Below are positions 15,453-52,855 of a stretch of DNA of 64,000 nt, piece by piece. Position 1 is the first letter of the stretch. The number at the start of each line of letters is the position of its first letter. The notes below the pieces were generated by a model, which had not been told where the DNA came from, ran no database searches, and was given only the letters and a program-made list of their open reading frames with translations. The translations under genes were made by a program, and so were the position numbers. Source of the stretch: Nymphaea colorata (Eukaryota; Streptophyta; Magnoliopsida; Nymphaeales; Nymphaeaceae); assembly GCF_008831285.2 (NCBI RefSeq), contig NC_045147.1, positions 12,589,427 through 12,653,426 of the forward strand, read 5' to 3'.

Positions 15453-16397
15453 TTAGTGTATTCTGCATAGTTAGCAGCTCTATATCAAGGACTTAATCAC
15501 TATTATTATTACCAATGTCGATACCGTCATGTTGATCCTATCATTGACACCGACACAACTCAGGACCCTAGAGGCAAGAGGAATGGGGGTGCCTTGGGGC
15601 TTTGCTTCGGGTGGTGGGATTGATCCTCTCGCTCACCCGATACCATCACGATTGATCACCGGTATGGATATTATAAATAAGATGACCTTTATTGTGGTCC
15701 AGAAAAGTCCCATCTTCAGGACTTGACCTAATTTTGCCGTCCGTCCACCATTTCTGGTTCCTGTCTTGAATCCTCTGCCTTTGTGCAGTTAGCTCATGTG
15801 AGCATGGTGAGCAGCATTATGTCATTTACCATGCTTTCTAGCAGTTAAACCTCCCAAAAAGTTGTTCCAACAGTTCATCTTTGCTGTTGGTGTCAAGCCC
15901 CAATTGTCTTCCTTTTCTTTTTCCATTAGTGTATTCTGCATAGTTAGCAGCTCTATATCAAGGACTTAATCACCATTATTATTACCAATGTCGATACCGT
16001 CACGTTGATCCTATCATTGATACCGATGCAACTCAGGACTTCAAAGGCAGGAGGAATGGGGGCCTTCGGGCTTCGCTTCGGGTGGTGGGATTGACCCTCT
16101 CGCTCACCCGATACCGTCACGATTGATCACCAGTATGGATATTGTAAATAAGATGACCTTTATTGTGGTCCAGAAAAGTCACATCTTCAGGACTTGACCT
16201 AATTTTGCCGTCCGTCCACCATTTCTGGTTCCTGTCTTGAATCCTCTGCCTTTGTGCAGTTAGCTCATGCGAGCATGGTGAGCAGCATTATGTCATTTAC
16301 CATGCTTTCTAGCAGTTAAACCTCCCAAAAAGCTGTTCCAACAGTTCATCTTTGCTGTTGGTGTCAAGCCCCAGTTGTCTTCCTCTTCTTTTTCCAT
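15453..16397. repeat. Tandem duplication, 473-bp unit, two nearly identical copies
   Basis: Copy 1 is 15453-15925 and copy 2 is 15926-16397. Both start TTAGTGTATTCTGCATAG and end CTTTTTCCAT. Differences are few, including a loss of GGTGCCTT-type bases in copy 2 around 16068, so the duplication is recent. The frame of 65 codons in copy 1 is not kept in copy 2, so the unit is probably non-coding. Confidence 0.93.
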
Positions 16398-17819: not shown

Positions 17820-20610
17820 GTTCGGAGGCATCCTCTGGCAGGTTTGATGTGTGCTTATGCTTATGATTGACTAGAAATATTGTTTTAATTTTCTTATTTT
17901 TCCAATGCGAACGAGCTGCGGATTTCCCCTTCCATTGGTTGGTGGTGAAGAATTTTTTCCTTTTAAAATTTTGACTTAAAAACTGTTTGCCAACAAAATT
18001 GGTGTGCACGCAACTCGATTTTGTTTGCCGCAATAGTTTAGGTCAAACATCCTTGAAATAGATATAATAAAATATATCTGATTCAAATCCGATCCGTTGA
18101 CATCCTCAAATTTGTTCTAACCAACCAATCATAGAAGCTTGTCCTTTTGGCCTCGGTTAATTTAAATATGTAACGGTGTGAGTAGAAGAGGTTTGGTCAA
18201 GCATACAGATTGGCATCTGGCCCATAAGATACAGGTTCTTTTCCAGTTTTGTAAATTTCTTTTCATTTTTAAAGCAATTCAACGTACTTTAAATATCTTT
18301 TAAAATTCAAAAAATAAAAATAATTGAACCCTCATCTAATTGGTTGGACCAGTCAAGAAAACTGTCTGTAGTTATCTGCAGATTTGTGTCCAAACCAGAT
18401 CTGGACCAAATGTGAAATTCAATCAGAATTAGTCTTATAAATTCAAAGTCATACATCTATTGGATCTTGAGCTTGCTGCATTCAGACTCAGACTCGATAA
18501 AAAGGCAAACCCAAGTTCAAACCCGAATAGGATTGTTTGTACTGAAAACTAACTTCGAATCTTTGGCTGAACAAGGATCATTCACCATTTGGGTAGCTAG
18601 TAAAACAAATAACAAAATGAAGTTGGATCATATTCTTCAAAAAGTGAGTGCTTGGATTGAGCACTAACTTGAAATCTTTGGCTCATTAATAAGGATCATT
18701 CACCAAATGGGCAGCCAGTAAAACAAATTATGAATGAAGTTGGGTGCAGAATCTCCTTTAATTCACAAGAAGGATATGCTTCTCATCATTCAATTTCACA
18801 CCCACCATGGAATGCCCCACCTATAACAGTACCTCAGTTCCAACTTTTAGTAGGAAAGGAGAAAAGCAAAGCAAATCCTATTGTAGGTGGTCTCACTGCA
18901 CCCACTTTAGCCACTTTAAATCCTCACCTCTCAAAGTGTCAGACAAACCAGTGGTGTTGCTACATTCTGCCAGCCAAAAACAGATGTTTTATATGGTGTT
19001 CATGTTCTCATGATCCTGCTTCCTTGCATGTGATCTCTACCCAGTATGTGAAGCTCCCAATTCAGATAAGACCTCCTCTTTGATAGGATTTTCTTTGTAT
19101 CTTTCCAATTTCATGGGAACAAGATCTAATCAAATTGGATTTGAATTTCACTGAAATATGGATTTTGTACTTAAAACAGATCAATTTCAAGTCCGGTAAG
19201 GAGATACAAGTTGGATCCGAATACCGTTTTTTTTTTTGCATAATCGGATACACCCGACCCAAAATTGACATCTCAACATCTTGAAAAGCAGAGAGTTGCA
19301 CCGTGGTACGTTGAGCACCTTCTTTTCTTCCACTTTTTCCAAGCATACATGCCAACTTTGGGGGCTCCCACAGTTCCATTTTCCAACTTTTTGACTTAGG
19401 GCCTACTTGCTTACTTTTTTTATCTTATTTTATTTCCCCATTTTCGTTTCTTGGGAGTGATCGTATAGATTAGTAGACTTGATGTCAAAGCTTGCAGTGC
19501 ATGCATCGAGCTGCGGTGCACTAATTTAGATCAAGGTAACTTATAAGTGCATTGATTACGCATATCAAATCTTTGGAAGCAAAAAACAAAAAAAAGAAAG
19601 GAACTTTCGGTGCTACAGTTAAATATGTTTTTTTTAAGAGAATTTTTCAAAAACACGATTAAATATTTGGAAATAAAAAAATATGCGCAACTTTCAATAT
19701 TGTGTAAACCAGACATGTTCTTTCAAGGTTACTTAAAAAAATCCACAAGATTGCGACTATACCAACACGTAAGATTATTAGCTTGTTCTTAAAAAAAAAA
19801 AAAGAAAAAACATGAAATGTCTTACTTGAAGAATGATTACATTTAGGGTCATTTGACAACAAAAACAATTTTTTCAAGATTAAAGCAGATCTATGAAACA
19901 CTTTAACAAATGTTCCATAAATCTGTCTTAATCCTTGAAGCATATTCATGAAAAGGTTATAAATGATTTCTTTTACCAAACGGGGCCTTAGGTTTTCACA
20001 TTTCAATTTTCCTTGGTCAAGCCAGCAAATAATAGTTTTCACATTTCAATTTTCCTTGGTCAAGCCAGCAAATAATAATATATTTTCTTTTAATACAAAA
20101 GGTTATAAATACTCTTGAAATTTGAAAACACGGGGGAGGGATTTAGATGAAGTAGTATTAGATGTAGTACTCTTACAAAATGAAGGAGGGAAGCGGGTTC
20201 AGCTCTTTTTTTGGTCGTAATCCTCTCGCAATAGATAACAACAAAATTAACCTTTCACGTAAAAATTGGATGTCTCATTTGCCTCCGACTCAACTGTAAA
20301 CTTTGAAAAGAAACTTAAATGCTGATCATATGTTGAAAATTAACTGGACATAAATTACTGGTTTATGTTTAAAACCATACCTTCACGAGATAAGACCCAT
20401 TAGTTTATAGGATCATGAGGTTGATGAGATACAGGATACTGTTGCATGCAAGTCATAGCCTAAATCAACTAAATAACAGATAAATTATGACAAATGCATC
20501 GTCTAGGTTGATTCCAAAGAAACTGGCCGTGAAACACATTAAGAAATGAAAGTCCATTAATGTCTTTCGCAAACTTACTTTTGCGAATAAATCCATTACA
20601 AAATAATGCA
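17820..20610 (+). repeat. Segmental duplication, copy A (non-coding unit)
   Basis: Aligns almost throughout with 32685-36060 in the same orientation, for example TTCGGAGGCATCCTCTGGCA against TTCGGAAGCATCCTCCAGCA at the left, and again near ACTAAATAACAGATAAATTA at the right. The longest frames differ between the copies by frameshifts, so the unit does not look coding. Copy A lacks about 170 bp and 43 bp that copy B has, and carries its own 43-bp tandem duplication at 19991-20077. Its right end runs straight into the first Argonaute-like fragment. Confidence 0.9.
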
Positions 20611-20919
20611 AGAAGCTAACAACAATCGAGATGTGAGTGTACAACCACCAGAAATCCCAAGAAGCCAACAACAATCAAGAAGTATTTTTATGATCAATAC
20701 AAACTGCACTTAATATAATTGGCACCTTTCCTGCTTAAATTTGAGTAGGGAGTAGGGAATCTGCTACCATTGTGCTTATTGAGTTATGTGTCTTGGCGGA
20801 GCGACAAAGATATTCAATAGAAAATTTGTCAAAAGATGCTCTCAAGTGGCTGACAGGTTTGACAAACATAACTCTGAATGATAGACTCGATAGAGTCAAG
20901 AAAATTGTTTCTGCGTAAG
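20611..20919 (+). pseudogene. Argonaute PAZ fragment F1 (truncated by copia LTR)
   Basis: The plus strand reads IELCVLAERQRYSIENLSKD from about 20779, then ALKWLTGLTNITLNDRLDRV. In Argonautes this is the end of the PAZ domain (P-x-E-L-C-x(5)-Q-R-Y pattern) and the start of the linker. Upstream is a YFYDQY-type segment. A stop (TAG in GGGAGTAGGG) and a frame change separate the two parts. The left end joins repeat copy A at an AATGCAAGAAGC junction; the right end is cut by the copia LTR. The original domain would bind the 3' end of a guide RNA; this piece cannot. Confidence 0.75.
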
Positions 20920-21127
20920 AAGAGTTAACGTGGTTCGGCTATTGCTACCTACATACACAAATGAACAAAACCAGCCTTTTTCTTTTTCATTCTTTTTTTT
21001 TGTGGTTCACCTTACAGACATATATTGGAGGGAACCGATGAGAACAACAAAGGAAATAAAAAACGAAAGGGAAAAACTTCTACATAAGAAACTTTCCTCT
21101 TACTGCAGACTAGTCGTTGCCTCAACA
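20920..21127 (-). repeat. Copia 3' LTR (truncated)
   Basis: Matches 26254-26476 from AAGAGTTAACGTGGTTCGGC to GTTGCCTCAACA. It lacks the counterpart of 26216-26253 and a 12-bp segment present in the other LTR. Confidence 0.88.
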
Positions 21128-21136
21128 ATCTCTCCC

Positions 21137-24100
21137 TCAAGTTAGAGAGCTGATGTTGATCCGCCCCAACTTGCTAGTAATCCATTGATGGTTCTCCTTT
21201 CCTAGGGCTTTAGTAAATATATCTGCCAATTAATATTGGGTACCAACATGAGGAGTACATATGGTTTTGTTTTGAATTTTTTCACAAATGAAATCACAAT
21301 CAACCTCGATATGCTTAGTGCGTTCATAGAACACTGGATTTGCACCAATATAAATGGCTGCCATGTTGTTACACATGAAACTCATAGGTTTTTCAATTTT
21401 GATTCCCATATTAAGAAGAAGCGCTTTGACCCATACAAGTTCACTGGCACATGTGGCCATAGCTCTGTATTCGGCTTCTGCACTAGACCTAGCGACCACA
21501 TTCTGTTTTTTGCTTTTCTATGTGACAAGGTTACCTCCCACCATAGTATAAAAACCGGTGGTAGACTTTCTATCACTCTGATCTCCAGCCCAGTCTGCAT
21601 CTGTGTATCCAATCACTTCAAGGTTGTTGTTCCGTTTCATTAAAATTCTTTTTCCTGGACTCTCCTTTAAATATTTGAGAATACGATGAACAGTTTCCAA
21701 CTGTATAGACCGAGGACTTTGCATGACTTGGCTTATCATGTTGACGGCAAACATGATGTCTAGCCGAGTTACAGTCAAATAAATTAGTTTTCCAATAAGT
21801 CATTGAAAGCCTTGAACATCTTAAATTGGTTTCCCATCGTCTTTTCTGATTTTGTAGTTGAGGTCAAGAGGAGTCGAACTCGGCTTAGCTCCCAGGAATC
21901 CTCTTTCTTTGAGAAGATCCAATGTGTATTTCCTTTGACATAAGAAAATGTCTTCTTCCGAATGAACAACTTCAATACCCAAAAAATATCTCAATTTCCC
22001 TAAATCCTTAATTTCAAACTTGTTGTGTAGTATGGCTTTGACTTTCTTCATTTGTTCTACATTGTCTCCTGTAACAATAATGTCGTCGACATACACCAAT
22101 AAGATAACAATACCTTGCCGGGAGTGAGAGACAAACATAGTGTAGTCTGCAGTGTTTTGCTTAAATCCGATCTCAATGAGGACACTACTAAGTTTTGAGA
22201 ACCATGCTCGTGGTGTCTGCTTTAGCCCATAGATAGATTTTTTGAGTCTACATACAAAACCAGGTTGATGTTTGAGGCCTTGTGGTGGATCTATATAAAC
22301 TTCTTCTTCTAAATTCTCATGCAAAAAAGCATTCTTGACATCAAGTTGAAAAGTATCCTAGTTCTTATTTGCTGCCACTGACAGAAGGATACGAATAGAG
22401 TTCATCTTAGCAACAGGGGCGAAAGTCTCTGTGAAGTCAATACCTTCTTGTTGGGTGTAACCTTTTGTGACTAATCTGGCTTTGTATCTGTCCACACTGC
22501 CACCATTGTTGTATTTTATTTCGTATATCCACCGACATCCCACTGATTCCTTTCCTTCTGGCAAAGGAACTATAGTCCAAGTTTGATTTTTCTCCAAGGC
22601 TGTTAACTCTTTATTCATGGCTTTCCACCATTCAGGGTCAAGACAGGCTTCCTGAAAGGTTGAAGGTTCACAGAGAGAATACGGGTTGAGGACATAGTAT
22701 TGGCACTTGGTTGACAGTTTACTAAAGTCTATGTATTTTTCAATGGGAAGTTTGGAGCTGGAGTAAGCAAGACTGGAACAGAATGGATAAAAATCACTAA
22801 ACCTAGAGGGTGGTCGTGTCACTCTAGATGGTCTTCTTCCTTCAGGTGTGCTATTGTCAATAGTTTGGTTTTGTGGGCTCAAGGAAGTTGACTCACAGTT
22901 TTGAGGTTCAGAACTACTCATTTCAATGTAAGTTGACTCACGGTTTTGAGGTTCAGAACTACTCACTACATGGTCAAACTGGTGGAAGGGTGATGGAATT
23001 GAAGCCATCAAAAACTGAAAAAAAAGGTTTTAGGAGTAGACTGTTGGCTAAACTGTTCATTGTGGTTGTGGTTACTATGGCTCTGCATCTCCCCCTCACA
23101 ATGAATTGGTATAGAAAAGAAAGGTCCATCTTCAAAGAATTTGATATCCCCTGGAGATGTACAACTTCTTAGTGGTAGGACCAAACACTTAAAACCTTTC
23201 TTAGAAGTGGAATAACCAATAAAGACACACTTGATGGCACATTTTTGTAACTTATTTCGAAACTTCTGTTGAAGATGAACAAATCACTTGCACTCGAACA
23301 CTTTCAAATGATTGACAGAGACATGTCGTTGGGTCAAAATGGCCATTGAGGCCATATTGTCAAGTCTCTCACTAGAAAGACGATTAATTATGTAGCATGA
23401 TGTAGCTACGGCTTCTGCCCAATATTCATCTGGCATGTTCATGTGAAACATCAAAGCACGTGTGACATTCAGAAGATGACGATTCTTCCTTTTAGCGACA
23501 CTATTTTGATGTGGTGTGCCTGTACAAGTCTTTTGAGACAATATTCCTTTTTGTGATAAAAAATCCTGCAACACTTCATTAATATACACGCAACGATTGT
23601 CAGAATGAATATGTTTGATCTTTATCCCAAATTGAGTCAAAATCATTTGATAAAAATTTTGAAAAAATTTAGAAACCTCATGCTTGTATTTTAAAAAATT
23701 GTGTTTTAAAAAATATATCCATGTTACCCTTAACTTATCATCAATAAATGTCACATAGTATCAAAATCCAGATGTAGAATCAAGTGGAGTAGGACCCCAC
23801 ACGTCCGAATGAACAAGATCAAATAATATGGAGCTACATTCGACAATATTGTTAAAAGGCAAGCGAGTAGACTTTGCAAATTCACAAGCATCACAAGATT
23901 TTGCAGAAATAGATAATTGAGGGAATAATGTGCGAACAATTTTATGAAAAACATGACCTAATCTAGAATGCCACAAACCAAATTGTTCAGTAGAGGAAGC
24001 ATGATTAAATAAAGCAAAGGTCTTAGAATCTAAAAAGTATATGCCACCCCGTTGGACGCCTCTACCAATCACCTTCTTCGATTCCTTGTCCTGAAAAACA

Positions 24101-24480
24101 ACATCCTTAGCCGAGAAAATTGTAATGCTCTTATGTGTAAGAGTAAGCTTGCTTACAGATAAAAGACTAGTATAAATATTAGGAACGTTAAGAACTTGAG
24201 AGTCTTTACCATCACAAAGTAAGTTCATGTGATTTGAGCCAGCAACCCACATTGTCGAGCCATCAATAGTAAAAATAGGCTTGAAATTTTTAAAATCTTT
24301 TGAGATGGCCGGTTGGTTGGTCATGTGTGCGCTGGCGCCGGAGTCGACTACCCAATTTATGATAGAAGAATGTAAAGAAAAAACAAAGGATGTACCTGAA
24401 TCGTCAGTGTTGACTGCCTCAGAGATGGGTTGAGATGATACCATACCAAATTTGTCTTTATCATTTGAGAAAAAAAATTC
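21137..24480 (-). pseudogene. Copia Pol remnant: protease, integrase, reverse transcriptase, RNase H
   Basis: Domains in order: protease with the intact motif DSGASAHMT; GAG-pre-integrase (LWHSRLGHVFHKIV); integrase with HSDNRCVYINEVLQDF, but the catalytic glutamate position reads NSVAKRKNRHLL where copia integrases have AERKN; reverse transcriptase with RWIYEIKYN, FAPVAKMNSIRILL and LLVYVDDIIVTGDN (the active-site YVDD is kept); RNase H with SSAEAEYRAMATCASELVWV. At least six nonsense codons and one frame change between integrase and reverse transcriptase break it. Several stops sit where TGG, CGA or CAA is expected, i.e. C-to-T type transitions. Not functional. Confidence 0.9.
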
Positions 24481-24492
24481 ATCATCTCTTCT

Positions 24493-25479
24493 TTAGTGAC
24501 AGTGAGTTGTTGTGTCCTCTTTGTTTGGCTTTTGAGAGACTCCTTTGTCACGTGGTGGCTTGCCAACAAGGTTCCAGCATTTGTCTCGAGTGTGGTCAAG
24601 TTTTTGACAACACGTACACTTGAAGTGAGCTCGATTTTTAAGTCGATCATGAGATCTAGATCCGGACAACCGATCATGAGAAGTAGACCCAGACATCGAT
24701 TTGTTTCTTAATGGATTGTGCCCTTGAGAAAGAAATGCAACCTTGTCTGGATGCTCAGTAGGTTGGGCATTGGATATAATAGGACTGGAAATCATCAATT
24801 TTTTGTGAGTTTCTTCACGTTGAATCATAGCACAAACTGATTTGAAAGATGGAAGGCGGGTCGTCATAAAAACTTGGCTGCGAAGATGCTCGTAATCTTG
24901 ACTAAGCCCACCAAGAAGTTTAAAAAATTTGTCTTCTTCAAGTCGTTGTTGTTGGATCTTGAGATCAATAGTGGGTGGTCGATACATAAGCATTTCATCA
25001 AACATCCCTCGAAGAGTACCCACATACACGTTAAATGGTTTATCTTGACGCATAAACCTAGTAATTTCATTTTGCAATTCATAGATATGGATAGTGTTGC
25101 TTTGCTTGCCATACACTTCTTTAACGGCATCCCACATTTCTTTGGTTGTTTCCATGAACATAAGCCCCTCATTGATTTGAGGCTCCATGGAATTGTATAA
25201 CCAAGACATAACCATGTCGTTTTCAGACTCCTACTCTGCATACCTAGGATTAGTAGGTTCAGGTTTAGGTATCGCTCCTATAATGTAGCTGACTTTTCCT
25301 TTACTACTTATAAAGAGCTTTGCTGTTTTGGACCAGCTGATGTAGTCAGTGCTACAAAAAAAAGTCGTTGAGATCTTGAGAGGGTGACTTTCTTGACTCA
25401 CCACTCTGGAACTATTGGATCCACCATCATAATAATTTGGTGGGAATGAAGACGGTTGTACTTCTGTGTTGAACTCCAT
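24493..25479 (-). pseudogene. Copia Gag with one nonsense codon
   Basis: Starts MEFNTEVQPSSFPPNYYDGG at 25479. The N-terminal Gag domain (TDYISWSKTAKLFISSKGK) is followed by an in-frame TAG near 25231, after which the same frame continues through WDAVKEVYGKQSN and a zinc knuckle CTCCQKLDHTRDKC (CX2CX4HX4C). The end, around 24470-24510, shows a slip out of and back into frame before the protease. The zinc knuckle would bind element RNA. One stop in an otherwise well-kept frame suggests moderate age. Confidence 0.88.
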
Positions 25480-26198
25480 GACAATACAAAGATAGAATAC
25501 CCGTTGTTGTAGCTTCTTCGAGTGAATTCTAGATAAGCTGAAACTTGGTCTGAGGGACCCCAAGCAACTTAGGATCCCATTCCAAATATGCTCGACAGCT
25601 AATTTTAACATGAGCGAGCACATGGAACGAAAGACGATTCCAAGAATTTATAACTCTTCAATCGCTACTCCAAAGAATCTGAAATTTGGCTGGTAGAATC
25701 CACGGAAGTAGACGATTCCAAGAGCCTATATTCGATGTATTCTGATGTCGGAGCTGATAGCGCCGGCTGCTGGAATCTGGTGCAGTTTCTGGTTTCAAAG
25801 GAAAAACACAGAAACAAAACACCCGACGCCTTTTATCTTTGATTTCTCCCTCACTTCAACACGAAAACACCTCAACTTGGTGGGAATCCTCCTAAGACTC
25901 AGGCGAATCCAACGAGTCATCAAATTCCGTCACCGAAGGTGGCTACACCGGTCGCCGGAAGTCTGATACAAATTCAGCTTTGCAGGAGCAGTTTACGCAG
26001 GAACAGAAAATAGTGAATTCCGAATCCATGTCGATGCTGCACCAACAGCGGTGAGGAGGTTGAGGAATCCAGCAACTAAAAAAAAATGATTCGAGGCGGA
26101 AGCAGAAGGAAAAATGGATTCCAGAAGATCTTTTCCTCCTTTCACAGCTCTAGTTTCTTGCCTTAGCCGATGAATAGGAACAAAGGAATTCATCAACG

Positions 26199-26215
26199 CC
26201 ACTGCTCTGATACCA
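26199..26215 (-). other. Copia primer-binding site, initiator tRNA-Met type
   Basis: The minus strand reads TGGTATCAGAGCAGTGG next to the 5' LTR, the standard plant copia primer site. Confidence 0.92.
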
Positions 26216-26476
26216 TATCAGAAATTGAAGAAAGATGACAATCACACATAAACAAGAGTTAACGTGGTTCGGCTATTGCTGCCTACATCCACAGATGAAT
26301 AAAACCAGACTTTTTCTTTTTCATTCTTTCTTTTTTTTGTGGTTCACATTACAGGCATATAATGGAGGGAACCGATTGGAACAACAAACGAAATAAACAA
26401 CGAAATGGAAAAACTTCTGCACAAGAGGAAAGTTTATTAACTTTCCTTTTACTAAAGACTAGCCATTGCCTCAATA
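26216..26476 (-). repeat. Copia 5' LTR (261 bp)
   Basis: Left boundary set by the primer-binding site; right boundary by alignment with the other LTR (CCTCAATA against CCTCAACA). To its right the sequence is Argonaute-array DNA. Confidence 0.85.
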
Positions 26477-26735
26477 TTTGAGAGCCACCATGTGTAAGTA
26501 GTTTGGAAGACATTTTCTTAATCCTATCGAGTCTATCCCTCGAAGATATGTTTGTCAAACCTCTAAGCCACTTGAAAGCATCTTTTGACAAATTTTCTAT
26601 TGAAAATTTTTGCCGTTTCGCCAAAATACATAACCCAATAGGCACATAGGTAGCAAACTTCCTGATCAAATTTAATTTGGTGGGTGCCAATTATATTAAC
26701 TACACCTTGTATTGATCATAAAAATATTTCTCGAT
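26477..26735 (-). pseudogene. Argonaute PAZ fragment R1 (reverse)
   Basis: The minus strand is open for about 60 codons here: LNLIRKFATYVPIGLCILAK, then RQKFSIENLSKDAFKWLRGL and TNISSRDRLDRIKKM. It is the same PAZ-end segment as in F1 but on the other strand and is one of the best preserved copies. It ends at ATCGAGAAATATTTTTATGA (minus strand), the point where F and R sequences stop matching. Confidence 0.8.
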
Positions 26736-26865
26736 ACACGTTATCCTGTTTGTCTCTCATATTGACAAATATTTCATAACTTTGATCGATTTACCTTTTT
26801 AGTTGAATCTTCGCTTAACTCAATAGTGCACCTGGTCACATGAACGGTTATGAAATGAAAAAATG
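26736..26865 (+). other. Spacer preceding PAZ fragment F2 (probable intron/upstream gene sequence)
   Basis: Matches 29524-29652 (in front of F4) and in part 36088-36171 (end of repeat copy B), sharing TTTGTTTCTCATGTTGGCAAATATTTCAT-like wording. It always lies just upstream of the PAZ sequence, so it probably comes from the same ancestral gene. Confidence 0.6.
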
Positions 26866-27305
26866 AGACAACATCCTGAAAGGTCTGAAGATTAGAGTTA
26901 TTCACATAAATACGAACGTGACATACACCATACTTGAGTTATCAAGCAGTCAGCTAGGGAGGAAACGTTTGATCTCTTTGATGTCAGAGGTAGATCTTCA
27001 AGCAAGAACAGATCCGAGAGCACAGCCGCTAGGAATCCAAGAAGCCAACAACAACCGAGAAGTATTTTTATGATCAATACAAGGTGCAGTTAATATAATT
27101 GCAACATCCCCTACTTAAATTTAAGCAGGGAATCTCCTACCTATGTGTCTATTGAGTTATGTGTCTTGGTGGAGTGGCAAAGATATTTAATAAAAAATTT
27201 GTCAAAAATGCTCTCAGGTGGCTAAGAGGTTTGACAAATATATCTTCGAGGGATAGACTCGATAGAATCAAGAAAATTGCTTCTACGCAGGATGAGTCAT
27301 GTAGG
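26866..27305 (+). pseudogene. Argonaute PAZ fragment F2
   Basis: One of the longest copies. The plus strand reads NILKGLKIRVIH (the LKGLKV..HR-type motif that opens the PAZ core in plant Argonautes), then in shifted frames a serine-rich stretch (DVRGRSSSKNRSESTA), KKYFYDQY-like sequence, and the end TYVSIELCVLVEWQRYLIKN. It ends ACGCAGGATGAGTCATGTAGG, where others have an exon end plus GTAAG. Frames change at least twice, so it is a pseudogene. It pairs with R2. Confidence 0.75.
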
Positions 27306-27660
27306 AAGCCTTTCAAACTACTTACATGAACTTTGAATTTGTGTAAGTAGGATGAGTCGTGGGGGTAAGCCTTCCAAACAACTTACATGTGGAGCTCTCA
27401 AATGCATAGTTTGTGCAAGTAGAATGGGCCATGGGGAGAAACCTTTCAAACTACTTACATGTATTCAATCTCAAATGCATAGTTCATGTAAGTAAGATTG
27501 ACTATGGGTGTAAGCCGTTCAAACTACTTATATGAACTATGCGTTTGTGTAAATAGTTCGTCTAAGTAGGATGGGTCATGTGGGTAAACCTTTCAAACTA
27601 TTTATACGTGATGGTTTTCAAACGCATAGTTCGTGTAAGTAGTTTGGATGGCTTATCCCC
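27306..27660 (+). repeat. 73-bp minisatellite, loop of hairpin 2
   Basis: About four units starting near 27345, 27414, 27487 and 27561. Each has the order GTAAGTAGGATGGGTC, GTGGGGGTAAGCC, TTCCAAACTACTTAC and AAACGCATAGTTC. The unit seems to contain the end of the PAZ exon followed by a GTAAGCC donor-like sequence. The last part at 27633-27660 is an inverted version leading into R2. Confidence 0.85.
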
Positions 27661-27828
27661 ACGACCCATCCTATGGAGAAACAATTTTCTTGATTTTATC
27701 GAGTCTATCCATCAGAGATATATTTGTCAAACCTCTCAGTCACTTGAGAATATCTTTTGACAAATCTTCTATTGAAAATCTTTGCTGTTTCATGAAGACA
27801 CATAATGCAATAGGCACACAAGTCATTT
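27661..27828 (-). pseudogene. Argonaute PAZ fragment R2 (reverse, short)
   Basis: The minus strand carries the ..SIEDLSKDILK.LRGLTN-type segment and stops within the ELC motif region. It is the shortest arm. Unrelated DNA follows, so the copy is truncated. Confidence 0.7.
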
Positions 27829-28632
27829 GAAAGTAATGATAAAGTATTATGCCCAAACATCAAGTTATCTACTACGGTTAGGTTTTATCCCCTCCATCTA
27901 GAGGATTCAATCCACACCAAAAAGGAAAAGGGAAAAAAAGTTCACCCTTACATAAAGAATTGAACGTGAGCAATTTTAAAAAATTTGGTAAAACCAAATC
28001 TGAAAATTTTCAAGTAAGGGCTTTAAGAAAAGAGGGAGCCTGAGTTTTTTTGTGCATGGTGTGCTTTGGGGTTTCTTCTTCTTCTTTTGTGAGAGTGTTT
28101 TTAATGTGTGACAGAAGGAAAGAGTTCTTGTTATCCATCTTTTTTCAAAGGCACTAAAGAAATTTAAAAGAGAAACAAAGAGAGATTGAAAAAGACAATG
28201 GTTTCATTTGGGATTGTCTTCCATTGTTTATGGTTGTTTAGTGAATATTAGGATAAGAGATAGCTTTTTGTTGTGGGAAGCATAGTTGGCAAATGCGTGA
28301 ATCGGCTCGGACCAGAAGCGAACTGAGTCACCTAGTCAATGGTCAAAGTTAGGCCTCTTATTTTAGCAATTTTTAAAGAAGAAAAATTTTAAACATCTTC
28401 TAAACATTTACGAAAAATGAAATTTAAAAACTTTTATTTTTGTTGGTTTTGAAAGTACTTGTAAAGAAAATAATAAACTTTATACAGAGACACCATTAAA
28501 TGTTGTTATAATGACCTTCACTTTTCAAAAGAGAGGGAGGGAGATTCAAATAAACTCTATATTTCAAGGTAGAGGGAGAGAGAGTAAGAGAGAGAGAGGG
28601 AGATTCACTATTACTTATATAAGTTCTCATTT
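27829..28632. other. Unrelated filler between hairpins 2 and 3
   Basis: No match to the array and no coding frame. It includes a GA-rich stretch at 28565-28605. Confidence 0.55.
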
Positions 28633-28995
28633 AGCAGTTAGCTAAGGAAGAAACATTTGATCATTTTGATGTCAGAGGTAGATCTTCAAACAAGAACAAA
28701 TTCGAAAGCACAACCACTAGAAATTCCAAGAAGCCAACAACAATCGAAAAAATATTTTTACTATAAATAAAAGGTACAATTAATATAATTGGCACATCCC
28801 CTACTTAAATTTGACTAGAAAATATGCTATCTATGTGCCTATTGAGTTATGTATCTTGGCAGAGCGGCAAAGATATTCAATAGAAAATTTGTCAAAAGAT
28901 GCTCTCAAGTGGCTGATAAGTTTGACAATCATATCTCCGAGGGATAGACTCAATATAGTCAAGAAAATTGTTTCTACGTAGAATGGGCTGTGGGG
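28633..28995 (+). pseudogene. Argonaute PAZ fragment F3
   Basis: Begins in the AKEETFDHFDVRGRSS region, then STTTRNSKKPTTIEKI followed by a TAA, a frame change, and YVPIELCILAERQRYSIENL with SKDALKWLISLTIISPRDRL. Ends TTTCTACGTAGAATGGGCTG before GGGGGTAAGCC. A pseudogene arm pairing with R3. Confidence 0.78.
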
Positions 28996-29281
28996 GTAAG
29001 CCTTCCAACTACGTATACAAACAAACTATGTGTTTTTATATATAGTTCGTGTAAGTAGGATGAATTGTGTGGGTAAGCCTTTTAAACTACTTACACAAGG
29101 TATGCGTTTGTGTAGTTCGTGTAAATATGATGGGCCCTGTGGGTAAGCTTTCCAAACTACTTACACATGATAACTCTCAAACACATAGTTATTTTAAGCA
29201 TGATGGACCGTGAGGGGTAAGCCTTCCAAACTACTTGCACGTGGTGACTCTCAAATACATAGTTCATGTAAGTTGTTTAGA
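28996..29281 (+). repeat. 73-bp minisatellite, loop of hairpin 3
   Basis: Three to four imperfect units of the same type as in hairpin 2, with GGGTAAGCC-like sequences near 28992, 29069, 29140 and 29216. Confidence 0.8.
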
Positions 29282-29523
29282 TGATCATGCACATAAACAA
29301 TTTTCTTGATTCTATCGAGTTTATCCCTCAGAGATATGTTTGTCGAACCTCTCAGCCACTTGAGAGCATCTTTTGAATGATTTTTTTATTAAAAAACTTT
29401 GTCGCTCCGCGAAAACACATAACTCAATAGGTACATAGGTAGCAGACTTTTCGCTCAAATTTAAGTTTGAGAGGTGCAAATTATGTTAAGCACCTTGTAT
29501 TGATCATAAAAATAATTCTCGAT
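29282..29523 (-). pseudogene. Argonaute PAZ fragment R3 (reverse)
   Basis: Reverse copy of the PAZ-end segment, with the same sequence order as R1 and ending at the same ATCGAGAATTATTTTTATGA point on the minus strand. Small indels break the frame. Confidence 0.75.
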
Positions 29524-29652
29524 TTATGTTGTCTTATTTGTTTCTCATGTTGGCAAATATTTCATGTCTCGATCGACTGAACTTAACCAGTTGAATGTTC
29601 GCTTTACTCAATAGTGCACCTAGTCGCATGAACAGCTATGAAATGAGAAAAT
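29524..29652 (+). other. Spacer preceding PAZ fragment F4
   Basis: Same spacer as 26736-26865, including the ACTCAATAGTGCACCT wording. Confidence 0.6.
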
Positions 29653-30094
29653 GAGAGAATATTCTAAAGGGTCTAAAGGTTATAGTTATTCATAGAAATA
29701 CGAACGAAACATACACTATATTTGGGTTATCAAGGAGTCAGCTAAGGAGGAAACATTTGATCATTTTGATGTCAGAGGTAGATCTTCAAGCAAGAACAAA
29801 TCCGAAAGCACAACCACCATAAATCCCAAGAAGGCAACAACAATCAAAAAAGTTTTTTTACGATCAATACAAGGTGTAGCTAATATAATGACACCTCCCC
29901 TGCTTAAATTTGAGTAGGGGATCTGCTACCTATGTGCCTATTGAGTTATGTGTCTTGGCGGAGCGGCAAAGATATTAAACAGAAAATTTGTCAAAAGATA
30001 CTCTCAAATGACTGGTAGGTTTGACAAACATATCTGTGAGGGATAGACTCGATAGAGACAAAAAATTTGTTTTTGCGCAGGATGGGCTATGGGG
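29653..30094 (+). pseudogene. Argonaute PAZ fragment F4 (fullest copy)
   Basis: The plus strand reads ENILKGLKVIVIHRNTNETY and TIFGLS, then shifts to VIKESAKEETFDHFDVRGRS and SSKNKSESTTT. After another shift, HLPCLN sits just before a frame with TYVPIELCVLAERQRY, then TAA where other copies have TCA. This order (LKGLKV..HR, GLS, TF..D, T..YF...Y, LPCL, Y.P.ELC......QRY) is that of a plant Argonaute PAZ domain. It ends GCGCAGGATGGGCTATGGGG|GTAAG, i.e. exon end plus donor. AGO2/AGO3-type affiliation is my impression only. Confidence 0.8.
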
Positions 30095-30390
30095 GTAAGC
30101 CTTCCAACAACGTATACAAACAAACTATGTGTTTGTATAAGTTGTTCATGTAAGTAGGACGAATCGTATGAATAAGCCTTCCAAACCACTTACACAAGCT
30201 ATGCGTTTGTGTAAATAGTTCGTGTAAATAGGATGATCGTGTGGGTAGGCCTTTCAAACTACTTACACGTGGTAGCTCTCAAACGCATAGTTATTTTAAG
30301 TATGATGGACTGTGGGGGTAAGCCTTCCGAACTACTTGCACGTGGTGGCTCTCAAATACATAGTTCGTGTAAGTAGTTTGGATGGCTTAT
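30095..30390 (+). repeat. 73-bp minisatellite, loop of hairpin 4
   Basis: Three to four units as in the other loops; GGGGGTAAGCCTTCC recurs at 30092 and 30315, with diverged versions between. Confidence 0.8.
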
Positions 30391-30625
30391 TCTTTTATCC
30401 CATCATGCACAGAAACAATTTCTTGATTTTATCGAGTCTATGTCTCGAAGATATGTTTGTCGAACCTCTCAGCCACTTGAGAGCATCTTTTGACAAATTT
30501 CCTATTGAAAATCTTTGTCGTTCCACCAAGACACATAACTCAATAGACACATAAGTAGCAGACTTTCTGCTCAAATTTGAGTTGGGTGGGTGCCAATTAT
30601 ATTAACTGCACCTTGTATTGATCAT
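30391..30625 (-). pseudogene. Argonaute PAZ fragment R4 (reverse)
   Basis: The reverse complement matches F4 closely from ATGATCAATACAAGGTGCAG to the GATAGACTCGATA region. It contains the ATYVSIELCVLVERQRFSIG-type segment. It ends the array; unrelated sequence starts at GTTAGTAGTGC. Confidence 0.78.
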
Positions 30626-32684
30626 GTTAGTAGTGCTAAAAAATTCTAGCGGAAGGGTAGTGAGACTTCAAATTGTAATTTTTATGAGTCATTTGGAATT
30701 TGAGACACTTTGTGAATGTCCTATGAAGATGCCCTAAAGATTGGGATAGGTTTATAAAATAATGGTTTTACTTTTCAGGGTTTTTATGGAAAACTCACAA
30801 AGTATTCCATTTGCTAACAGGTTGTTCGATGGTAGGGACACTTTGTGATTGTCTCATAAATTTGCCTCAAAATTGAGCCAGATACATGAACGCATAATTC
30901 TAATGTTTTATAAATATGTTCCAATATTTATCATGGATTCATAAAACATTCATAGAGTGTTCCAACTTCCAAATAACCTACACAAACCAATAAGTAAATG
31001 GTAGTGATGAGTCTACCGACACTAACACTACCGACAAAAAAAAAAAAACAAAAACGATAGACTATAAAGTCATAACAAAGGAAAGAAATGGAACGTAGGT
31101 TCTGGAAGTCCAATTTTAGAAGATAAAGCATGATAAGTAACTACTGCACTCAAACAAAAGACTTGCGCCTACGGTATGATGATCAAGCACCTTTAGAAAA
31201 TAGTCAGAGATCTCCTTTTTCTACCATTGATGCCATAGAAAAATGGAACATAAAATTATTGAAAGGAAAGCAAAAAAAAAAAAAGAGAAATCCCACCATC
31301 ACACTCTACGACCACTTTAATATGCTAAGGATAAACTATTACAAACATTAGGAAGCTTTGCAAGAGAGAGAACCATCCATAATGCCACCGTGCAATAGAT
31401 CAGGTTTTGACTGAAGGCTGGAAGAAGAAGAGCTTCTGCAAATGATGATTGGTGCCTCTGGAAATGGCTGCCAACGATGATCAGTGCCTCCGGGAAGAGC
31501 TGAAGATGATGATCGGTGCCTTTGGGTAGGTCTGAAGAGATCCTCTGGGAAGAGCTGGCAAAGAGGAAGAAGAGTAACAGATTGTCGAGGCGGAACTTGA
31601 CTCGTCGTGGAAGAAAAGAGGAAGAACAATAACAGATTGTAACAGACAAAATTGACTGGAGCTGCGACTAAGAATCCTACAAATGTTTACGTAAGAAAGA
31701 TATCACGATAATGATCTAACCTTGGGGAAGGTCTGCAAAGATCAATAAAGAAACGCAGATGAGAAACAGAGGACGGGGCAGATTTTGACTATCAGAGGGA
31801 AAGCAAAAATTCAAGGAACATGGAGTTAGGTTGGATAAAAGAATTGGGTCACGGGGTCAGGATTGGACCAAAGATGGGGGCGTAGATCAACGAGGTTATC
31901 AGCTCCGATGTGTGCCTTGGGGAGGCACCATTGCTGAAGACGTCATTTGCAGCAGTGAGAAAATGGAACTAAACCTGCTTGCAAGAACCCCGTAAATAGC
32001 TGGTAAATCTACCTGATTTATGCAACTTTACACAAATTTACGCGAAATTCTGGGAAGTTTCAGAATTTTTGACAAAAAAGAGAGGTCCATTATGCGTTAT
32101 TTTGCTTATAATCAATCCTACCTAAATATTCGGCTGTAAATGCTTCTTCCGAAGAGTTAACTTTACCGAAGTACTTTCCTTCTAAAGAGCTTTCGTCCAA
32201 GAACTTCATGTAGACCTTTGTTATTCTTAGAAGGAAGTAACTTTCGAGAAACTTTGGACTCAAGTTTTTCCTTAACCTTTCCCCTTAACCACCAATGCGG
32301 AAATATTTGTGTTCAAAAAAAGAAAATTGCTTACTAATACGTTATTTGCAAGCAAAAACGAATGACGTGTGAACCGAATGCTTAAGTTCTTCGTTTGACA
32401 TCGGCTGTGCGACACATAATGGATTAAGCTATCTTGATTTATCAGGCAACAAGCTTATAGAAGCAACATTCTCCATTTGATTTGCGAAGCTTAATCCACG
32501 TAAAAGCTTTTCTCAAGTTAAGCATGAACGAGCTTCACTGGGAAAAAAAGAAGGTAAGAAAACTATACCATCAATGAAGTAACCCAAGTTCCATTTTGTC
32601 TTGTTTTGTTTTATTCCAACCACAAAAAACTAATCCATTGTAAACCCAATGCCCTTAATTTCAAGATTAAACCAGCTTTACGTA
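30626..32684. other. Intergenic; nothing recognised
   Basis: AT-rich. At 31430-31580 short repeats of the type GATGATCGGTGCCTYYGG produce frames on the minus strand that do not look like a protein family. Confidence 0.5.
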
Positions 32685-35600
32685 TGTTCGGAAGCATCCT
32701 CCAGCAGGTTTGATGTGTGCTTATGATTATTATAATTGACTAGAAATATTGTTTCAATTCTTTTTTTTTTTTTCGATGCAAACGAGCTGCGGATTTTCCC
32801 TTCCATTGATTGGTGGTGAAGGATTTTCTAAAAACTGTTTGTCGACAAAGCTGGTGTGCATGCAACTCGATCTGGTTTGCCGACAGAAGCTGCACCCTAG
32901 TGTCCATGTCTGGTGCATGTTCGGGAGTTGAATACGCCGCTCTTGGAGCCACAAAGTAGGAAAACAATAACCTTCTGTTTACCCTTTGTCTTTTAAAGGA
33001 ACCTCCTTTTCATTAGTTGTGGGTACTTTTGTCGTTTGACCCAGGTTCGGCTGCAATAGCTTAGGTCAAGCATCCTCATACAATAAAATATATGTGATTC
33101 AAATTCGATCCATTGACAACAGAACCTCAAATCTGTTTAAGCCAAGGCGTCATATAAGCTTGTCCTCCCTTAATTTAAATCTGGAACGGTGTGAATAGAA
33201 GAGGTTCGGTCAAGCATACAGATTGGCATCTGGCCCATAAGATACAGGTTCTTTTCCAGTCTTGTAAATTTCTTTTCCATTTTAAAATCAATTCAACGTA
33301 CTTGAAATATCTTTTAAAATTCATAAAATAAAAATAACTGAACCCGCATCTAGTTGGTTCTATTGGTCAAGAAACTGTCTGTAGTTATCTGCAGATTTGT
33401 GTTCAAACCAGATCTGGACCAAATGTGAAATTCAATCAGAATTAATCTTATAAATTCAAAGTCATACATCTATTGGGTCGTGAGCTTGCTGCATTCAGAC
33501 TCAGACTCGACTAAAGGGCAAACCCAAGTTCAAACCCGAATAGGATTAAGCCGGCTACTCGTTTAGGTCCATATTCACCAAAAATAAATTGTTTGTACTG
33601 AAAACTAACTTCGAGTCTTTGGCTGAACAAGGATCATTCACCATTTGGGTAGCTAGTAAAACAAATAACAAAATGAAGTTGGATCATATTCTTCAAAAAG
33701 TGAGTGCTTGGATTGAGCACTAACTTGAAATCTTTGGCTCATTAACAAGGATCATTCACCAAATGGGCAGCCAGTAAAACAAATTATGAATGAAGTTGGG
33801 TGCAGAATCTCCTTTAATTCACAAGAAGGATATGCTTCTCATCATTCAATTTCACACCCACCATGGAATGCCCCACCTACAACAGTAACCTGACCTCAGT
33901 TCCTACTTTTAGTAGGAAAGGAGAAAAGCAAAGCAAATCCTATTGTAGGTGGTCTCACTGCACCCACTTTAGCCACTTTAAATCCTCACCTCTCAAAGTG
34001 TCAGACAAAGCAGTGGTGTTGCTACATTCTGCCAGCCAAAAACAGATGTTTTATATGGTGTTCATGTTCTCATGATCCTGCTTCCTTGCATGTGATCTCT
34101 ACCCAGTATGCGAAGTTCCAAATTCAGATAAGACCTCCTCTTTCATTGGATTTTCTTTGTATCTTTCCAATTTCATGGGAACAAGATCTAATCAAATTGG
34201 ATTTGAATTTCACTGAAATATGGATTTTGTACTTAAACAGATCAATTTCAAGTCCGGTAAGGAGATACAAGTTGGATCCGAATACGTTTTTTTTTTTGCA
34301 TAATCGGATACACCCGACCCAAAATTGACATCTCAACATCTTGAAAAGCAGAGGGTTGCACCGTGGTACGTTGAGCACCTTCTTTTCTTCCACTTTTTCC
34401 AAGCATATATGCCAACTTTGAGGGCTCTCACACAGTTCCATTTTCTAACTTTTTGACTTGGTGCCTACTCTTTTCCTTTATTTTATTTTATTTTATTTCC
34501 CCATTTCGTTTCTTGGGAGTGATCGTATAGATTAGTAGACTTGATGACGAAACTTGCAGCACATGCATCGAGATGCGGTGTACAAATTTAGATCAAGATA
34601 ACTTATTAGTGCATTGATTACGCATATCAGATCTTTCCAAGGCAAAAAACAAAAAAGAGAACTTTTGGCGTTACAGTAAGATATGTTTTCTTAACAGAGT
34701 TTTTCAAAAACACGCTTAAATATTTGGAAATAAAAAATAGGCCCAACTTTTAATATTGTGGAGATCAGTCCTTCCTTTTTAAGTTAATTAAAATAATCCA
34801 CAAGGTTGCGGCTACACGAACAGTAAGATTGTTATCTTCTTCCTCTAAACAAATAACATGAAATATGTCTAACTTTACAAATGAGTACATTTAGGGGTCA
34901 TTTGATAACAAGGACAATTTTTTTAAAAATTGAAGCATATCTATGAAACACTTTAACAAATGTTTCAATCTTTGAAACATATTTATGGAACAGTTATAAA
35001 TGGTTTCTTTTACCAAACGGGGCTTTAGGTTTTCACATTTTAATTTTCCTTGGTCAAGCCAGCGAATAATAAGATATTTTCTTTTAATAAAAAAAGGTTA
35101 TAAATACTCATAAAATTTGAAAACTTGGGGGAGGGACTTAGATGAATTAGTCTAGTTATGTTTTTTTAAGAGAATTTTTCAAAAACACTCTTAAATATTT
35201 GAAAATAAAAAAATATGTCCAACTTTTAATATTGTGGAGACCAGACCTATTTTTTAATTAAAAAGATCCACAAGATTGCATCTAGACGAACAAGTAAGAT
35301 CATTATCTTGTTTCTTTAAAAAAAAATAACATCAAACATGTGAGTACATTTAGGGGTCAGTTGCTAACAGGAACAACTTTTCCAAAAATTAAAACAGATC
35401 CATGAAACACTTTGATAAATGTTTCATAAACCTGCCTTAATCTTTGAAGCATATTCATGAAATGGTTATATGGAACCTTAAGTATTCACATTTTAATTTT
35501 CCTTAGTTAAGCCAGTGAATAATAAGATATTTTATTTTAATAAAAAAAGTTATAAATACCCCTGAAGTTTGAAAACATGGGGGACATAGGGAAGGAAGGA

Positions 35601-36060
35601 GGGAAATAGGTTCCGCTTTTTTTTGGTCACTCGGTCATATTCCTCTCGTAATAAATAACAACAAAAGTAATCTTTCGCGTAAAAATTGGATCTCTCGTTT
35701 GCCTCTGACTCGGCTGTAAATTTTGAAAAGAAACCGATATGCTGATCCATGTTGAAAATTGACTGGACATAAATTAGTGGTTTATGTTTAAAACCATCCT
35801 TTCCTTCACGAGATAAGACCCATTCGTTTATATGATCATGAGGTTGACGAAATACTGCATCTTGTTGCATGCAAGTCATAGTCTAAATCAACTAAGTGAT
35901 GGATAAATTATGATAAATGCATCGGCCGGGTCAATTCCCAAGAAACCAGCCGTCAAAGGCATTAAGAAATGGAGAGTCCGTTAATGTCTAATGCAAAACT
36001 TACTTTTGCAAATATTTTATTATGAAATAATGCAAATAAGAATTTCTTCCGCTACAAGAA
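32685..36060 (+). repeat. Segmental duplication, copy B
   Basis: Direct-orientation partner of 17820-20610. It is longer because it keeps two segments missing from copy A (about 32880-33050 and 33545-33590) and contains its own tandem duplication of about 474 bp (34681-35154 against 35155-35600), starting TATGTTTT..TTTTTCAAAAACAC. No shared open frame with copy A. Confidence 0.9.
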
Positions 36061-36087
36061 GCTTTCTGAAACTTTCTTGACATTGCT

Positions 36088-36171
36088 CTGTTTGTTTCTC
36101 ATGTTAGCCAATATTTCATACCTCAATCGACTAAACCGACCAGTTGAATCTTTGAATCTTCGCTTGTGATA
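36088..36171 (+). repeat. Argonaute-array spacer fragment at the end of copy B
   Basis: TGTTTGTTTCTCATGTTAGC and the following AATATTTCATACCTCAATCG match the spacers at 26745 and 29537 that precede PAZ fragments F2 and F4. The match stops before the PAZ sequence. Confidence 0.65.
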
Positions 36172-51717: not shown

Positions 51718-52638
51718 CTACGTGGAGTCAATAACCCAATGTTGGCCGTCGACCTCCACTCGCAGACCTTTCGCCTTTGCAAACAAATTTACAGCCCTTC
51801 TGACGCCTCTGTCATCAGCCATGGTGAAATAATCATGGCCGAAGATGACTCCCCCTGGCCTTAGAACCTTGTATGCCAAGTTGATGTCGCTCCAAGCCGA
51901 ATGAAAATCATGGCCTGCATCGATTTCAATCAAATCCGCAACAACGCCCCATTCGCAGAGCTTCACCAGCGCTGAGCTGCTAGAGAACGGTATGGGTGTT
52001 ATCATCTCCGTCATGTTCATGTAATTCACATTCTGCATGAATTGTTGGAGCAGCAACACGTCGCCATTGACGTAACTCATACGTCTGAGTTTCCTGTTGA
52101 ACTCGGGCCATCCTCTGAAATCATCAACGCAGAAGATCTGTGCACTCAAACCAAGCTTCCGTGTAACTTGCCCCATGTGTATGGCGGATGCCCCAAGGAA
52201 AGTGCCAATTTCAATTATGGTTCTTGGCTTGACTCTGCGGATGAGATTCTCAAAGACATCCCCATTTGAGCCCCATCCTTTGATGCGCCTTTTCTGCAAC
52301 AGCGGTTGCAGGTGGGGAGGAGGGAAGCCGATGAAGGGCGAAGTGCCATTGAAGATGTGAGCTAGGACAGTTTGCTTAATCAACTCTGATGGGATGGGGT
52401 TGGCGCATCCGCTTCCAAACCGGAAATGATCGGAATTGAAGAAAGAATTAGAGTAGGAAAGTCTTTCTGCCGTCAAATTCTTGACATCCGTGTTGGAGTT
52501 GTTGATAGGTGGCTTAACAAAGATGCCGGAGTAGAAGCCAAAGGCATAAGAGAGGAAGAGGAGGAGTACATAAGCTACTGGTCTGAACAATCGGCTAGCC
52601 AAAGGTGGGTATCTTCTCTGCTTCTCTTCCTTCATCAT
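51718..52638 (-). CDS. Class I SAM-dependent methyltransferase-like protein with N-terminal membrane anchor
   Basis: An intronless frame of 306 codons. Residues 1-19 are basic, about 20-40 form one hydrophobic segment (VAYVLLLFLSYAFGFYSGIF) giving a type II membrane topology, then a stem, then a Methyltransf_24-like domain: TIIEIGTFLGASAIHMG (140-156, SAM-binding motif I), AQIFCVDDF (166-174), ADLIEIDAGHDFHSAWSDIN (234-253) and VLRPGGVIFGHDY (258-270). Plant proteins of this layout are usually annotated only as SAM-dependent methyltransferase superfamily; the substrate is unknown. A Golgi location is inferred from the anchor. The ATG at 52638 (MMKEEKQRR) was chosen because the frame upstream has no ATG before 52692, only a TTG. 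A (GA)n tract at 52697-52723 lies in the 5' region. The frame looks intact. Confidence 0.9.
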   Translation of the reverse strand: MMKEEKQRRYPPLASRLFRPVAYVLLLFLSYAFGFYSGIFVKPPINNSNTDVKNLTAERLSYSNSFFNSDHFRFGSGCANPIPSELIKQTVLAHIFNGTSPFIGFPPPHLQPLLQKRRIKGWGSNGDVFENLIRRVKPRTIIEIGTFLGASAIHMGQVTRKLGLSAQIFCVDDFRGWPEFNRKLRRMSYVNGDVLLLQQFMQNVNYMNMTEMITPIPFSSSSALVKLCEWGVVADLIEIDAGHDFHSAWSDINLAYKVLRPGGVIFGHDYFTMADDRGVRRAVNLFAKAKGLRVEVDGQHWVIDST

Positions 52639-52696
52639 CCTTGTGCAGCTACAGAGATAGAGAGAGACAGAGCCGACAAATTGGGAACTCAATAAC

Positions 52697-52727
<31 letters not shown>

Positions 52728-52855
52728 TTCGCTGCGGAGGGGTGTTTAATTAGGAGTCTCTTTCGGGTTAGTTGTATAGAAGCGGGTGCAAACTCGCTAT
52801 CAGACTAATTTAATAGCAGACGATGAAGCGGCCCCTGATTTTGGAGAGGATAACG
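52697..52855. repeat. Duplicated block next to the methyltransferase start, copy 1
   Basis: (GA)n followed by GATGGCTTCGCTG..GGGTTAGTTGTATAGAAG and CTCGCTATCAGA. Matches 53625-53800 in the same orientation. It lies directly upstream of the methyltransferase coding region (minus strand), so it probably includes its promoter or 5' UTR. Confidence 0.88.

Follow-up and report, generated by a model that had tools for sequence, protein, structure and literature searches.

The stretch of DNA analysed here is a window of 64,000 nucleotides from chromosome C10 of Nymphaea colorata (contig NC_045147.1, positions 12,589,427 to 12,653,426 of the forward strand), and the element of interest within it is an array of eight Argonaute (AGO) PAZ fragments arranged F-R-F-R-F-R-F-R between window positions 20610 and 30625, with F arms sense and R arms antisense to Argonaute. 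The arms are ~200-520 nt long, correspond to the latter half of the PAZ domain and the end of the PAZ exon, and are 79-84% identical to a gene on chromosome C14, referred to here as AGO-A. An earlier note on this DNA had described eight alternating fragments forming inverted repeats, and this description holds: there are 32 inverted pairs of at least 40 nt, and the 25 displayed are 76-89% complementary over 53-206 nt, far above chance.

The eight fragments form four hairpins, whose exact arm ends were partly read by eye. Hairpin 1 opens with F1 (20610-20917, plus strand), a PAZ-exon fragment truncated on its 5' side and 84% identical to AGO-A at C14:3073684-3073422 for 20641-20911; at its start, where the left flank joins, a micro-duplication of ~20 bp of AGO sequence can be read by eye. 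Its partner R1 (26506-26735, minus strand; 84% identical to C14:3073423-3073651 for 26508-26735) lies on the far side of a Ty1-copia retrotransposon (20917-26476, minus strand) of ~5.5 kb that sits in the hairpin 1 loop. The frame of this element is broken into several open stretches, and the two minus-strand stretches scanned gave RVT_2, and gag_pre-integrs with Pol_BBD. A spacer (26736-26816) leads from R1 to F2 (26817-27335, plus strand), the longest fragment, which includes the PAZ exon and the start of the next intron and aligns with AGO-A at C14:3073893-3073360 with 82.6% identity over 535 columns (E 4e-151 for DNA). In loop 2 (27336-27618) a 73-bp unit is repeated about four times; read by eye against the AGO-A exon/intron junction, the unit is made up of the exon end and the intron start (..GGTAAGCC..). 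Hairpin 2 is closed by the truncated R2 (27619-27823, minus strand; 79% to AGO-A for 27621-27818).

Between hairpins 2 and 3 is an insertion of a dispersed repeat (27824-28632) that separates them by ~0.8 kb and adjoins F3; its segment 27850-28632 has 26 genome matches including itself, the best outside the window being 83% on C7. Hairpin 3 comprises F3 (28633-29008, plus strand; 82% to AGO-A), loop 3 (29009-29251; 73/74-bp repeats) and R3 (29252-29545, minus strand; 84% to AGO-A for 29297-29538), with the outer ends of R3 taken from its match to F2. After a second spacer (29546-29605), hairpin 4 comprises F4 (29606-30107, plus strand), which runs through the PAZ exon up to the exon end and is 82% identical over 506 columns to C14:3073892-3073388, loop 4 (30108-30352; 73/74-bp repeats) and R4 (30353-30625, minus strand; 79% to AGO-A for 30359-30625). 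Arm ends vary between units. No array-specific loss of CpG was found, the observed/expected ratio being 0.62 in the array, 0.64 in the AGO-A exon part, 0.645 in the window, 0.56 in the copia stretch, and 0.52 and 0.58 in two copies of the flanking DNA (see below).

The PAZ identity of the fragments, which had been read from peptide motifs, is confirmed by profile and gene matches. F4, scanned in the genome with stops read through, scores 45.9 bits against a Pfam PAZ cut-off of 28.8, and is recovered by tblastn with AGO-A at E 1e-46. As for the motifs themselves, the PAZ end is present in the F sense and the LKGLKV part occurs in F2 and F4 only. Eight short arm peptides from seven arms (two from F4, none from F2) were also compared with Pfam; four match PAZ, with E no higher than 0.09 and 2e-4 at best, three have no match and one is assigned to an unrelated family (E 0.12), and the F1 peptide alone had no match among solved structures at E up to 10. 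A consensus of the arms, assembled manually over the frame changes, matches PAZ at E 9.1e-18 and solved Argonautes at up to 3.9e-6, but it was put together with prior knowledge of Argonautes, and the identification therefore rests on the gene matches. The PAZ reading of every arm is interrupted by a stop or a frame change. Outside the arms, tblastn with AGO-A gave no further AGO parts in the window below E 1; five rows at chance level (E 1.3-6.6) were returned, one of them inside the array.

A DNA search of the genome with F4 gave at least 10 matches. Eight of them are the arms, and the other two, on C14 (85% and 77%), correspond to two AGO2-type genes in tandem ~14 kb apart, AGO-A (C14:3070269-3075742) and AGO-B (C14:3085020-3088911). 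The exon of AGO-A that bears the PAZ domain has a frame open from stop to stop for 461 codons, and the PIWI exon has one of 481 codons. The PAZ exon of AGO-B has an insertion, a stop and a frame change, while its PIWI exon frame is still open, and AGO-B is probably a pseudogene. This tandem pair is the likely source family of the array. The earlier note had also suggested an AGO2/AGO3-like source, and this is consistent with the scores of the AGO-A PIWI/MID exon against solved MID chains: 72.4 bits on the 150-residue chain 4g0m ('argonaute 2'), at most 59.2 on the chains named argonaute 1 and 52.8 for argonaute 5, all of which we take to be from Arabidopsis. By these scores the source gene appears nearer to AGO2 than to AGO1 or AGO5. 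A site like the miR403 target was looked for and not found in AGO-A or AGO-B, the best candidates having 7 and 8 mismatches of 21.

Several features indicate how the array arose. The matches of F2, R2 and R4 extend past the exon over the GT donor into the intron; since several arms reach into the AGO-A intron they are DNA-level copies, and a processed pseudogene or retrocopy is ruled out by the intron sequence. Six of the seven arms that cover the site share an extra base relative to both AGO-A and AGO-B (F4 has its own deletion there and R2 stops short), so that the arms most likely derive from one copy whose frame was already lost. In a tree of the arms the F arms form a clade with support of 99 (inner nodes 91 and 82) and the R arms one with 69 (inner nodes 83 and 64), and the branching order is the same in both, (2,(1,(3,4))). 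Junctions recur as well: the R1/F2 spacer is found again between R3 and F4, and once more, without arms, at 36091-36152 (84% identical to 29537-29599; the link to the R1/F2 copy was made by eye). Together, tree and junctions point to amplification of one hairpin-bearing unit. The earlier note had argued that four hairpins in a row make chance unlikely; that argument loses its force if, as it appears, they reflect the duplication of a single unit and not four independent events.

The array is flanked by a local direct duplication and is accompanied by a second, separate AGO piece. The left copy (17820-20609, plus strand) adjoins F1 and matches 32686-36035, and the right copy (32686-36152, plus strand) ends in the spacer-like segment 36091-36152 without AGO arms. 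The right copy may thus represent the state of the site before insertion of the AGO sequence, and later loss from it is also possible. The two copies are 80-95% identical in 150-column steps, but a central tract of ~0.9 kb (18512-19363 / 33525-34423) is 97-99% identical; part of it (18800-19560) has two genome matches, both within the window, and the tract could be either a product of gene conversion or a conserved non-coding element. The second AGO piece lies outside the span of the array at 32397-32689, on the minus strand and thus antisense to the F arms. It is an AGO-A/B-type 3'-flank fragment, 84% identical over 295 columns to C14:3084305-3084596, ~0.4-0.7 kb beyond the AGO-B stop. A search with 30640-32640 gave 45 matches (40 of 67 candidates scored), and the 3'-flank part, of which this query excluded 32641-32689, had one match outside the window.

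There is no indication that the arms have been held to a coding function. Divergence between arms is nearly even across codon positions (0.18/0.19/0.20), as compared with 0.11/0.10/0.23 between AGO-A and AGO-B, and changes private to single arms fall on positions 1/2/3 in the numbers 24/38/34. A coding gene is therefore ruled out by the broken PAZ frames and the equal codon-position divergence of the arms. We conclude that the array is probably an AGO2-type gene fragment that underwent inverted duplication and tandem amplification and has since decayed.

The principal alternative, put forward in the earlier note, is that the array is an active hairpin small interfering RNA (siRNA) or proto-MIRNA locus whose transcripts are processed by DCL enzymes and reduce the level of AGO-A, a feedback on the silencing machinery. 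Folding is supported for hairpins 2, 3 and 4, whose minimum free energies on both strands have z scores of -21.5 to -31.6 (20 shuffles each) and whose longest helices are 21-42 bp including G-U pairs; hairpin 1 is split by the 5.5-kb copia insertion and was left out of the folding. Strong folding is, however, expected of any inverted repeat, and a more telling comparison is that of each arm with its own and with foreign partners, own-arm pairing better than foreign being a criterion of selection set in this analysis and not a published definition. Over the block common to the eight arms, F and R arms of one hairpin (native pairs) are 83.4% identical and those of different hairpins 84.8%, and the native pairing ranks last of 24; it is last of 24 also by duplex energy, on both strands. 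Either selection on pairing or conversion within hairpins should make own partners the best, and since they match worst neither is supported. The 42-bp minus-strand helix of hairpin 4, the best native run with G-U allowed, is rejected as a sign of function, as non-native pairs reach 41 (minus strand) and 43 (plus strand). Strand-biased wobble, in which transitions keep G-U on one strand, was absent from all four native pairs (p 0.26-0.70) and was seen in one of twelve non-native pairs at p 0.005. No depleted 21-nt window was found over 270 columns, the observed minimum being reached in 58% of 5000 permutations, and with no conserved island and arms of this length the array lacks the short stem with a single conserved 21-nt duplex of a MIRNA.

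In favour of such a locus is its capacity to target. An AGO gene of sufficient identity, without which the proposal would fail, is indeed present: the AGO-A exon frames are open, and of 2556 arm 21-mers 73 are perfect matches to the AGO-A exon sequence, a number that rises to 296 if up to one mismatch is allowed and to 712 if up to two are, while a loose score for plant targets is passed by 935 (the corresponding numbers of matches against AGO-B are 21, 116 and 339 of 2556). This complementarity would in principle be enough for some siRNAs to target AGO-A. The same counts weigh against simple decay, as do a few other observations. All four exceed a simulation of uniform divergence (200 runs), which gave 21.7 +/- 12.2 perfect matches, 136.5 +/- 30 and 426 +/- 45 when up to one and up to two mismatches are allowed, and 594 +/- 40 by the loose score; an exact run of 51 nt with AGO-A is kept in F2; changes cluster by column with borderline significance (variance p 0.052); the window richest in changes, which lies at the exon end where alignments become ragged, varies more than chance would allow (p 0.0004); and support is weak for the R clade (69) and for the node that joins all arms (66). 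The 21-mer excess is not counted as selection because the uniform model ignores the shared history of the arms and uneven constraint, and we tentatively attribute it to uneven constraint on AGO-A together with that shared history. With own-partner pairing the least favourable, no conserved island, no wobble bias and hairpin 1 broken, the selected dsRNA function that had been proposed is not borne out. We regard an active locus of this kind as unlikely, and the narrower case, in which the array is transcribed in some tissue and diced to 21-22-nt RNAs that damp AGO-A, as quite improbable; the array is most likely without selected function.

Two further origins deserve consideration beside a tandemly amplified inverted duplication. 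Inverted arms, a repeat-rich loop, a captured fragment that includes intron sequence and dispersed repeats nearby are all features of a foldback transposon or one like a miniature inverted-repeat transposable element (MITE), with the AGO fragment captured in the style of a Pack-MULE or Helitron. Genome searches with F4 and loop 2 nevertheless match this locus only, apart from the C14 genes in the case of the arms (the loop 2 query, 27345-27620, gave seven matches, all within the array, and the C14 genes were not among them), and they rule out a dispersed transposon family. Arm ends, moreover, differ from unit to unit, and neither terminal motifs nor target-site duplications were present at the junctions read by eye, so that such an element is highly improbable. 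Alternatively, C10 could once have carried a third complete AGO2-type gene, derived for example from a genome duplication, of which only two pieces survive as a relic. This view overlaps with the first step of the history that we favour, and it would account for two distinct AGO pieces, PAZ exon and 3' flank, within 12 kb. The 3'-flank piece, however, is wrongly oriented for a simple relic, and no synteny was seen between the window and the C14 region, so that a genome-duplication relic finds no support in synteny: the methyltransferase frame of the window matches itself only, none of the five RhoGAP matches is on C14, and blastn of the window against the 48 kb around the C14 genes gave, besides the AGO pieces, three short matches. 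We consider a third-gene relic rather unlikely.

For an amplified inverted duplication the following history can be proposed. A piece of an AGO2-type gene that starts inside the PAZ exon and continues into the intron after it, and a separate 3'-flank piece, would have reached C10 at the DNA level; homology and intron content establish the derivation of the pieces, and we infer that they arrived jointly. The first piece would then have lost its frame and been copied head to head to give one F-loop-R hairpin, with the 73-bp exon/intron-junction repeat as its loop, a step shown by the common frameshift and the F clade and weakly by the R clade, with the origin of the loop read by eye. The hairpin and its adjoining spacer, a unit of ~1.1 kb, would subsequently have been duplicated to four, as supported by the shared branching order and the recurring junctions; the simplest history would place the inverted duplication beside the spacer first and the duplication of the ~1.1-kb unit afterwards. 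Finally, the copia element would have split hairpin 1 and the dispersed repeat parted hairpins 2 and 3, while the arms drifted. The copia terminal repeats are 84% identical (Kimura two-parameter distance 0.12 over 215 sites) and own arms are 0.27-0.29 apart; coding or pairing constraint on the arms is undetectable. If transcribed, the array would fold and could be diced, and its small RNAs, as silent-repeat siRNAs, would act mainly on the array itself, with perhaps a weak effect on AGO-A.

Elsewhere in the window, a 471-bp unit is present at 15453-16397 in two head-to-tail copies that are 95% alike. An open frame of 343 codons at 51718-52749 (minus strand) encodes a Methyltransf_24 domain, and this is the frame whose protein search of the genome returned only itself. 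RhoGAP-domain exons at 60777-61677 (minus strand), strong for 60777-61220 and weak for 61306-61677, presumably belong to a plant ROP GTPase-activating gene. No match in the window reaches the gathering score of an Rfam family.

The array is made of old hairpins built from a pseudogene fragment and belongs to a general kind already known. Inverted duplication of pseudogene-type sequence has been proposed for many pseudogene-related miRNA genes, as outlined by Zhang et al. 2011 (PMC3237417), and in this respect the array resembles young plant MIRNA and hairpin-siRNA genes; it differs in being known from its sequence alone, in its four tandem copies and in arms that have drifted without preference for their own partners. 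The teosinte Tpd1 hairpin, by the account in PMC11390486, derives from a lipase gene and yields 22-nt siRNAs with cleavage support at the target. Both are long endogenous non-coding hairpins interrupted by transposon insertion (for Tpd1, by several insertions in maize W22), but the small RNAs of Tpd1 target a host gene, whereas the array has an AGO source and is so far a matter of DNA sequence. The naturally silenced petunia CHS-A, as described in PMC3608071, is comparable by description only, a host gene there being naturally silenced by homologous sequence. Literature searches for AGO-derived or inverted-repeat AGO2 hairpins surfaced only the teosinte hairpin work, from which we make no claim of absence, and the titles and abstract openings found for AGO or miR403 in Nymphaea held nothing on such a locus.

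The array is thus best read as material from which inverted duplication could give rise to small-RNA loci, and not as a demonstrated regulator. It shows how a gene fragment became a tandem hairpin array with its source family still in the genome, and with a neighbouring flank copy that may preserve the locus as it was prior to insertion it lets the initial steps of the inverted-duplication model be followed. At present the sequence speaks for decay and not for regulation; if small RNAs were found, the silencing machinery would here be silenced by a fragment of its own.

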